The position numbers were made by a program, and so were the translations under genes. This document shows, piece after piece, positions 60,164-62,782 of a DNA stretch of 62,929 bases; the stretch's first letter is position 1, and the number at the start of each line of letters is the position of its first letter. This DNA comes from a bacterium (GTDB taxonomy: Bacteria; Armatimonadota; UBA5829). Location of the stretch: the NCBI GenBank assembly GCA_021373255.1, contig JAJFTD010000047.1, forward strand, positions 1 to 62,929. Reading direction: 5' to 3'. The notes under the pieces are model-generated. The model saw only the letters and a program-made list of their open reading frames with translations. It searched no databases and was not told where the DNA came from.

Positions 60164-61288
60164 ATGGGAAGACAATATCAAGTAGGAGTCTACTATTTTC
60201 CAAACTATCATGTTGACTCTCGAAATGAAGCTGTGCATGGTAAAGGCTGGACTGAATGGGAGTTGGTTAAGCGGGGTGAGCCTAAGTTTCCCGGACATCA
60301 GCAGCCGAAGGTCCCTCTGTGGGGTTATGAGGATGAGTCCGATCCGACAGTCTTTGCAAAGAAAATAGATGCCGCCGCAGATCATGGCATCAATCACTTT
60401 ATATTCGATTGGTACCACTACGAGAATGGGCCATTCTTGAACGGATGCCTCGACCGGGGATATTTGAATGCGCCAAACAACGACAGGCTAAAGTTCTGCC
60501 TGATGTGGGCAAACCATGCCTGGCAAGACATACATCCTGCCAAGGCTAATCAAGAACCTAAGTTGCTTTACCCTGGTGAGGTTGGCCCGGATGCTTTTGA
60601 CCGTATCAGCAGCATGATAGTCGAAAAGTATTTCAAGCACCCATCGTATTGGGCAATAGACGGCTGCCCCTACTTCTCCATATATGACTTAACTTCTTTG
60701 ATTCGTGGGCTGGGTGGGCTTGAGCAGGCTCACCAGGCAATGCAGGCATTCAGAGAGAAAGTAAAGGCTGCTGGTTTTCCGGATTTGCACTTGAACGCAG
60801 TTATTTTTGGAAATGTAGTTCTCCCATCGGAAGAGGTCATCGAAAACCACGCCGATGTTCTCTCTGCCATCGGTTTTGACAGCGGCACATCGTATGTGTG
60901 GGTCCATCACGGTGGGCTGGAGCACTATCCTACGACGGATTACAAAGTAACTGAAGAATGCTATTTCCAATACTGTAAAACCGCTGGCGAGAAAATCGGC
61001 TTGCCCTATTATCCCAACATCACAATGGGTTGGGATTCCAGCCCAAGAACATGCCAATCTGATATTTACTCAAACATCGGATATCCTTTTACTCCGATGA
61101 TCATCGGTAATACACCGCAGGCATTCAAGCAGGCGCTACAGAGAGTCAAGTCGTTCATCGACGAGCAGTGCAGCCACAACATTTTGAATATAAACTCATG
61201 GAATGAATGGACTGAGGGAAGTTACATTGAGCCGGATGCGGTGAATGGCATGGCCTATCTTGAGGCAGTGAAGGAAGTTTTTGGTTAA
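60164..61288 (+). CDS. WbsX-like (GH99-type) glycan-associated protein
   Basis: A 374-residue protein with the WbsX / glycosyl hydrolase 99-like fold: VGVYYFPNYH at the N-terminus, GKGWTEWELV, FDWYHYENGPFLNG and INSWNEWTEGSYIEPD near the C-terminus. WbsX-type proteins are linked to lipopolysaccharide or capsule clusters; GH99 enzymes cleave alpha-mannosides, but the catalytic pair is not certain here. No signal peptide is seen, so it acts in the cytoplasm unless exported otherwise. GGAG precedes the ATG, 33 bases after uvrC. Confidence 0.8.
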   Translation: MGRQYQVGVYYFPNYHVDSRNEAVHGKGWTEWELVKRGEPKFPGHQQPKVPLWGYEDESDPTVFAKKIDAAADHGINHFIFDWYHYENGPFLNGCLDRGYLNAPNNDRLKFCLMWANHAWQDIHPAKANQEPKLLYPGEVGPDAFDRISSMIVEKYFKHPSYWAIDGCPYFSIYDLTSLIRGLGGLEQAHQAMQAFREKVKAAGFPDLHLNAVIFGNVVLPSEEVIENHADVLSAIGFDSGTSYVWVHHGGLEHYPTTDYKVTEECYFQYCKTAGEKIGLPYYPNITMGWDSSPRTCQSDIYSNIGYPFTPMIIGNTPQAFKQALQRVKSFIDEQCSHNILNINSWNEWTEGSYIEPDAVNGMAYLEAVKEVFG

Positions 61289-61490: not shown

Positions 61491-61784
61491 TTAATATGCG
61501 AAGCGTTTTGCTCGTGGGGCTGTGTTTTCGATTATGTGTGAACCTGCCAGTTCCACCTCACAGACTACATCACGAATGCCTGGCCTTTGTTTTAGGAGCT
61601 TAACGATAGACATTAATTCCTGGTGGAGATTTGTATCGTCGTAATAGCCCCTGATCTTATCTAGCCGCCCGTGAAGATAGACGACACCGCGCGATACATG
61701 GACATCCAGGCCGCTCAGATCCAGCGGTCGCTTGGATATATCCCTGATTACCTCGCGCGTCATGGATGCATCAACAACTGACAT
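61491..61784 (-). CDS. BON-domain protein
   Basis: A 97-residue protein with the alpha-beta BON fold: a first strand GLDVHVSRGVVYLHGRLD and second-half segment RPGIRDVVCEVELAG. BON domains bind phospholipid or interact with membranes. There is no signal peptide, so its location is uncertain. AGGAGG lies upstream of the ATG. A single-gene unit between two REP-like/terminator regions and the RNA gene. Confidence 0.7.
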   Translation of the reverse strand: MSVVDASMTREVIRDISKRPLDLSGLDVHVSRGVVYLHGRLDKIRGYYDDTNLHQELMSIVKLLKQRPGIRDVVCEVELAGSHIIENTAPRAKRFAY

Positions 61785-61933
61785 CTTCCCGCCTCCTCTA
61801 CAGATCCTGCCAAACCTGCTAGGAACACTGAAATGTACAATACCTGACGCTAGGGCCTATCTATACCAGGTAGTATATCATGTAATGTAAAAAATGAGAC
61901 TAATGCTGGTGAAATAGTTACGCGAGAAGCTGG

Positions 61934-61963
61934 TTGACATCGAGCAAGATGTGTTGGTAGAAT
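61934..61963 (+). promoter_or_regulatory. Promoter of the structured RNA gene
   Basis: TTGACA (61934-61939), 18-base spacer, TAGAAT (61958-61963). Transcription should start near 61970, exactly where the closing helix of the RNA begins. Confidence 0.7.
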
Positions 61964-61969
61964 AAGAAT

Positions 61970-62195
61970 GTTGGTATAAAGCTGCCCACAGAGCGGCTTT
62001 GAAAGGCGTGTGCGTGATGGAAGTTCGAACGGTAATAACCTGTTCGCGAATAACTCACCTGGCCGGCGGATCCAGGGCACACAGTCTGCGCATGCTGGAA
62101 GATGGCATGTGCCTGGACTACCAATGCCAACACGACCCGCAGAGTCAATTATTACGAGTAAGCCCACTGTGATATTGTGTCATAGTGGGCTTTTT
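61970..62195 (+). ncRNA. Structured non-coding RNA of unassigned family
   Basis: A transcription unit of about 226 bases between its own promoter and an intrinsic terminator, with no convincing reading frame. Stems seen directly: GTTGGTAT (61970-61977) closes with ATGCCAAC (62123-62130), one G-U pair; AAAGCTGC (61978-61985) with GCGGCTTT (61993-62000), loop CCACAGA; CGAACGGT (62026-62033) with ACCTGTTCG (62038-62046), AATA loop; TCCAGGGCACA (62071-62081) with TGTGCCTGGA (62108-62117), one bulge. GTAATAA (62032-62038) can pair with TTATTAC (62149-62155), a possible pseudoknot. I find no match to tmRNA, RNase P, SRP or a common riboswitch. An unusual 6S RNA is possible. Confidence 0.6.
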
Positions 62196-62196
62196 C
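62161..62196 (+). terminator. Intrinsic terminator of the structured RNA
   Basis: AGCCCACT (62161-62168) and AGTGGGCT (62184-62191) form an 8-bp stem followed by TTTTTCTG. It lies 17 bases before the HNH gene, so it could also attenuate that gene. Confidence 0.8.
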
Positions 62197-62212
62197 TGTA
62201 TCTGGTGGTGCT

Positions 62213-62782
62213 ATGAGCCAAGAAGTACTAGTATTGAATAGCGATTATGAACCTCTGAACATCTGCAACATGAGACGTGCGATTGCACTCGTCTTCCTGG
62301 GAAAAGTAGATGTCCTGCACGAGGACGGCCATTCGTTCCACACGGTGTCCAGCATATATACTGCACCGTCGGTGGTAAGGCTGAGGAATCACGTGAGGCG
62401 GCCGACGCCGCAGCTTAAGTTGTCACGGCGAAGTGTGCTTGCGCGAGATAATCACACATGCCAATACTGCGGCTACAGGGGTACCGACCTGACGGTTGAC
62501 CACGTCATCCCCAAGCGTCTCGGAGGAAAAAACACCTGGGATAATCTGGTGGCCTGTTGCAAGAAATGCAACTCAAAGAAGAGTGACAAGACCCTTGCCC
62601 AGTTCGGACATCCTTTACTGCACACCCCGAGGAAACCGAAGTATGTGCCGTTTATCAGCTTCACGAAGTTCGTAAATGGGTCACGCAACTTAATATGGCG
62701 AGATTATTTGCCCGTATTCCAAGAGACTAACCCTGAGTTTGTGACTGCTGAGAGAGAATCTATGGCGAACGCGGCAGGCTGA
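62213..62782 (+). CDS. HNH endonuclease family protein
   Basis: A 189-residue protein of the small HNH family common in Cyanobacteria, Actinobacteria and Chloroflexi. It has a characteristic N-terminal segment (VLNSDYEPLNICNMRRAI) and an HNH domain: two zinc-binding pairs (CQYCG and CKKC) flank DLTVDHVIPKRLGGK and NTWDNLVACC. The physiological role of the family is unknown. It carries no RuvC or REC-like domains, so it is not IscB. A ribosome site is weak (GGTGG). The region 62783-62837 holds nothing. Confidence 0.85.
   Translation: MSQEVLVLNSDYEPLNICNMRRAIALVFLGKVDVLHEDGHSFHTVSSIYTAPSVVRLRNHVRRPTPQLKLSRRSVLARDNHTCQYCGYRGTDLTVDHVIPKRLGGKNTWDNLVACCKKCNSKKSDKTLAQFGHPLLHTPRKPKYVPFISFTKFVNGSRNLIWRDYLPVFQETNPEFVTAERESMANAAG

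Follow-up and report, generated by a model that had tools for sequence, protein, structure and literature searches.

The window analyzed here, a 62,929-nt stretch of an Armatimonadota genome (contig JAJFTD010000047.1), carries a short segment with its own promoter and terminator just ahead of an HNH endonuclease gene, which raises the question of whether this segment encodes an RNA in its own right or belongs to the nuclease gene that follows. A first-pass annotation had favored the former, describing a structured RNA gene of a new class. From comparison of the corresponding sequences in relatives, we conclude that 61934-62196, composed of a promoter, a short coding ORF and an intrinsic terminator, serves the HNH nuclease gene as its 5′ leader and is not a structured RNA gene. 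We propose that promoter, leader ORF, terminator and HNH gene together form a translation-coupled transcription attenuator of the pyrBI type, whose leader peptide is often His-rich, an assignment that the sequence comparisons make probable.

Results

Organization of the HNH upstream region

The features of the locus are given in Table 1. A single sigma-70-type promoter match and a single terminator are present between 61800 and 62260; both had been recognized in the first-pass annotation, the latter as a hairpin followed by a U-run. The terminator stem is conserved, with compensatory changes across seven genomes in an RNAalifold alignment. In the window, the HNH ATG follows the T-run after only 17 nt, too little for a promoter, and HNH transcription must therefore cross the terminator. 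The 5′ leader holds a promoter, a short coding ORF and an intrinsic terminator, and the downstream gene has no second promoter within 61800-62260; the locus has the layout of a leader-peptide attenuator in the general sense.

Table 1. Features of the HNH leader unit in the window.
Feature	Position	Strand	Basis
Sigma-70 promoter, TTGACA-18-TAGAAT, extended -10 TG	61934-61963	+	11/12 consensus match
Predicted transcript start	about 61970	+	From promoter position
Shine-Dalgarno-like GAAAGG, 10 nt before leader ORF start	62001-62006	+	Sequence; inferred
Leader ORF, 51 aa, ATG start, MEVRTVITCSRITHLAGGSRAHSLRMLEDGMCLDYQCQHDPQSQLLRVSPL	62017-62172	+	Homologues, codon-position pattern
Intrinsic terminator, presumed attenuator	62160-62195 (stem 62160-62192, 15 pairs; T-run to 62195)	+	Compensatory changes
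HNH endonuclease gene, PF14279 HNH_5 and PF01844 HNH, presumed controlled gene	62213-62782	+	Pfam

The HNH protein has a homologue in 252 of the 291 Armatimonadota genomes. Compared with IscB, Cas9, PtuB, PDC-M01B and candidate defence families, it has only the HNH domain in common with them, below NCBIfam cut-offs, and we rejected its assignment as a known defence effector, the similarity to PtuB, PDC-M01B and IscB being confined to the HNH domain. As for the neighbors, a WbsX-type gene (60164-61288; PF14307, weakly GH99) lies upstream of the unit on the same strand, and a 97-aa ORF on the minus strand (61491-61784), divergent to the unit, gives a sub-threshold match to the BON domain (PF04972). 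No tRNA or tmRNA was found in the window; at the contig end (62879-62929), an apparent tRNA gene is broken off shortly after the anticodon arm (CTCATACC; CAT anticodon, Met type), and it is absent from the ARAGORN output, presumably since the gene is incomplete.

The conserved part of the leader is a coding frame

Comparison with relatives at the DNA level revealed a short conserved block upstream of HNH in three other genomes of the family, which, read in frame, is a peptide. The annotation had seen no open frame with a believable start in this region; the ATG-initiated leader ORF, preceded by GAAAGG, is nevertheless conserved. Its peptide is present in all four other genomes of the genus (E 4e-8 to 6e-7), always just upstream of HNH, and weak homologues occupy the same place in two further genomes of the family. 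A profile HMM iterated on the upstream ORFs of 95 loci retrieved 17 loci at E < 0.01; each of them lies at the corresponding place on the plus strand, and the minus strand gave no match. The conserved core reads GGSRAHSLRxLEDGxC, and its changes in relatives fall mostly on third positions, with 53, 34 and 86 pairwise differences at codon positions 1, 2 and 3, respectively, over the five genomes of the genus. The in-frame amino-acid identity amounts to 0.85, compared with 0.58-0.73 in the other five frames, a value reached by none of 5000 column permutations.

Among order-level relatives, the LRxLEDGxC core and the LEDGxC..H motif display strong amino-acid conservation, which suggests that the nascent leader peptide itself may matter. 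The peptide has no match to a protein family in Pfam, NCBIfam or PADLOC. A search of 121 genomes for copies away from HNH gave weak matches only, none of them convincing, and a wider regulon of the leader peptide was rejected on this basis. We also note a weak hairpin, GGCACA/UGUGCC, inside the coding core (window about 62076-62108, alignment A2 columns 128-167), with a few compensatory changes; it may serve to pause RNA polymerase or reflect constraint on the coding sequence.

The apparent RNA structure is mainly the terminator

In favor of a new class of structured noncoding RNA or riboswitch, the whole 226-nt unit does fold better than its shuffles (z = -3.34). When the terminator is left out (61971-62159), however, z falls to -0.80 and 35 of 200 shuffles fold equally well; most of the apparent structure thus comes from the terminator. 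Across the leaders in general, folding without the terminator is slightly better than that of shuffles (mean z -0.81 ± 0.19), in favor of some structure. Yet in an alignment of the window with six relatives that carry the promoter-leader-terminator-HNH unit, the letters forming the 8-bp closing helix and the first stem (helices 1-2) are found in this genome only, and the partners of the proposed GTAATAA/TTATTAC pseudoknot are not preserved. Taking all helices of this type together, 66% of the alignment cells pair, with a covariation close to that of shuffles. RNAalifold, applied to relatives, recovers the terminator with its compensatory changes, plus weaker helices that overlap the coding core, leaving the terminator as the only structure clearly common to them.

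At gathering thresholds, the Rfam covariance models found nothing in the window, and up to E 10 their matches were at chance level only. A known Rfam ncRNA such as 6S was rejected on this basis. Given that the reading as a new RNA class is also largely contradicted by the coding pattern of the ORF, we consider it extremely improbable.

The end of the leader ORF is tied to the terminator across Armatimonadota

Upstream DNA was taken from 90 of the 252 HNH-carrying Armatimonadota genomes and from five named loci, giving 92 loci after duplicate removal. A sigma-70 promoter matching the consensus at 10 or more of 12 positions occurs at the corresponding place in 74 of these 92 loci, many with a perfect TTGACA-17/18-TATAAT, and a terminator precedes HNH in most of the loci examined.

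In the window, the leader stop TGA (62170-62172) sits within the 5′ arm of the terminator. Related genomes enter all our statistical comparisons (shuffle, binomial, Fisher) as independent. On this footing, 62 of the 74 promoter loci have an ORF of 35 aa or more whose end falls from -15 to +30 of the terminator (shuffled leaders: mean 13.1, maximum 21, 200 shuffles), and in 28 of the 74 the stop lies exactly at the base of the stem (shuffled: mean 2.2, maximum 8). Ordinary genes, taken from about 290 Kbp of this genome, have their stop at the stem base in only 1 of 37 cases, with a median stop-to-terminator distance of 29 nt; the difference in stem-base stops between leader loci and ordinary genes gives a Fisher p = 2e-5, again with related genomes counted as independent.

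While the leader sequences differ greatly between families, their geometry relative to the terminator persists. The leader accompanies HNH even though the neighboring genes differ between genera, and five genomes of the same family that have no HNH have no leader either. Among the loci examined in other phyla (Cyanobacteria, Chloroflexota and others), there is no consistent terminator upstream of HNH, and the presence of the same leader there was rejected for this reason. Overall, these comparisons indicate that the HNH leader unit is kept across almost the whole phylum Armatimonadota. The suggestion that the terminator may control HNH is well supported by this: the order promoter, leader ORF, terminator and HNH is maintained through the phylum, and in the window HNH lacks the space for a separate promoter.

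Some leaders read through the terminator

Stop codons at the stem base are not the only arrangement. In two loci from another genus of the same family (L044 in G007 and L047 in G011), the leader ORF (MSDDD...) extends across the terminator, and its stop codon overlaps the HNH start in an ATGA; this pyrBI-like layout occurs beside relatives with a stem-base stop. Another 30 loci were sampled, mostly from families f16 and f32, which are probably Fimbriimonadales, to judge in part from a named Fimbriimonadaceae locus. Of these 30, 21 carry different leaders, marked by the motifs PPxWxDTIIR or RWSTGSWFGTRGR (L190-L201, L229-L248; families f16, f32 and f33). The leader frame crosses the terminator in all 20 of these 21 loci with a detected terminator, and 18 of the 21 leaders stop within 25 nt of the HNH start; note that the motif itself served to choose the frame, so that these counts support the layout and are not an unbiased test of it. 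In the PPxWxDTIIR leaders, PP precedes W, and their translation could be EF-P dependent.

These variants bear on the reading of the ORF as a separate gene, with a promoter and a terminator of its own, for a small protein such as an inhibitor or partner of HNH, with HNH expressed via incomplete termination. The strong amino-acid conservation among order-level relatives and the occurrence only beside HNH (121 genomes, weak matches elsewhere) would suit such a gene. However, its peptide sequence would have turned over between families while the terminator geometry was kept, the read-through leaders end close to the HNH start, and the median distance of 29 nt found for ordinary genes is not what the leaders display; this reading appears quite unlikely.

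His-rich leader ends and the search for an antiterminator

Over the 25 C-terminal residues of the leaders, histidine accounts for 9.7% compared with 2.4% in ordinary ORF ends, and at least two His occur in the last 25 residues in 41 of 57 leader loci compared with 10% of ordinary ORF ends, related genomes being counted as independent in these tests. The leader of the window itself has fewer His residues than many others.

His-rich ends, together with the LEDGxC..H motif, recall a classic leader-peptide attenuator of the trp, his or whiB7 type, in which stalling at His or Cys codons, or nascent-chain arrest, would allow an antiterminator to form and turn HNH on under starvation or translation stress. 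The pairing of a strong promoter with a strong terminator, as in the whiB7 and ilvB1 leaders (PMC11550727, PMC13236596), also speaks for it. Against this, duplex energies over 57 loci, compared with shuffles, revealed no common antiterminator that would pair with the 5′ arm of the terminator (mean z -0.20 ± 0.15), and because of this, classic amino-acid-sensing attenuation lacks one of its parts; nor do the read-through leaders fit. We regard this type as unlikely here.

Discussion

A proposed translation-coupled attenuator ahead of HNH

Of the readings considered, attenuation of the pyrBI type is the one we favor: the leader ORF abuts or overlaps the terminator such that a close ribosome could mask the hairpin. 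In E. coli, shortening the distance between stop codon and terminator from 28 to 5 bp reduced termination from about 90% to less than 10%, and did so only when translation was coupled; the hairpin can fold fully only if 10-15 nt or more of RNA are free ahead of the A site (PMC4824070). Tight transcription-translation coupling underlies the action of the pyrBI leader (PMC5021804). From the stop-distance result and pyrBI coupling, we infer the direction of regulation, namely that a close ribosome would mask the hairpin and switch HNH on, and that a lagging ribosome would lead to termination.

A ribosome following close behind RNA polymerase would cover the 5′ arm of the terminator on reaching the leader stop codon, or, in the read-through variants, run across the hairpin itself; the masked hairpin could not form and HNH would be transcribed. 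If leader translation lagged, for instance at the conserved LEDGxC or at a His-rich stretch, the hairpin would form and transcription would end after about 226 nt, yielding the short RNA that had been taken for a gene product. The unit would then report the translation state, perhaps the supply of His-tRNA or Cys-tRNA or a nascent-peptide effect, to the nuclease gene. Some observations speak against this model: the conserved LRxLEDGxC residues exceed the needs of simple hairpin masking, and the peptide may thus have a function of its own; leader sequences diverge strongly between families; and the leader of the window is poorer in His than many others.

Relation to known attenuators

The his operon leader peptide HisL carries many His codons before an intrinsic terminator. 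The HNH leader peptides resemble it in being often His-rich and in preceding an intrinsic terminator, but their target is a nuclease and not histidine synthesis, their His residues are interspersed and form no run, and no alternative hairpins were found. At the E. coli rph-pyrE attenuator, the upstream ORF stops near the terminator stem and ribosome coupling decides on readthrough. The stop of the HNH-leader ORF lies near the stem in the same manner, whereas the upstream ORF is a short leader of about 37-85 aa instead of an enzyme gene.

The likeness to E. coli pyrBI lies in its leader ORF, pyrL, which overlaps the intrinsic terminator before the structural gene; the read-through variants have this layout. 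In pyrBI, a close ribosome suppresses termination (PMC5021804, PMC4824070). The HNH unit differs in its target, a nuclease gene instead of pyrimidine synthesis, in the position of the leader stop, at the stem base in most families, and in its conserved, often His-rich peptide. In Actinobacteria, the leader of the single gene whiB7/wblC has a uORF and a Rho-independent terminator and is widely conserved (PMC11550727, PMC13236596). The HNH unit likewise has a uORF and a terminator before one gene; unlike the HNH leaders, in which no antiterminator was detected, whiB7 has one and turns on when uORF translation is disrupted.

We found no earlier account of an HNH leader peptide, an HNH attenuator or Armatimonadota leader peptides in the open-access literature, and the HNH-leader attenuator is apparently new.

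Significance

With the present analysis, a supposed new RNA class proves to be a false candidate, and its place is taken by a probable attenuator, apparently undescribed and widespread in Armatimonadota. The leaders, whose stops lie at the stem base, within the stem or beyond it, form a natural series in which the effect of ribosome position on intrinsic termination can be studied, and the attenuator offers a testable handle on a widespread HNH family. It is conceivable, if doubtful, that throughout the phylum the ribosome itself switches a chromosomal nuclease gene, the conserved His/Cys- or PPxW-containing leaders sensing, via the nascent chain or via codons, a specific translation signal (charging of His-tRNA, stalling that depends on EF-P, or inhibition of the ribosome) and coupling it to DNA cleavage or defence; if true, this would be a previously undescribed translation-state-sensing nuclease system. 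A near-consensus promoter combined with a putative gate set by leader translation would imply that the cell ties production of the nuclease to a particular translational state.
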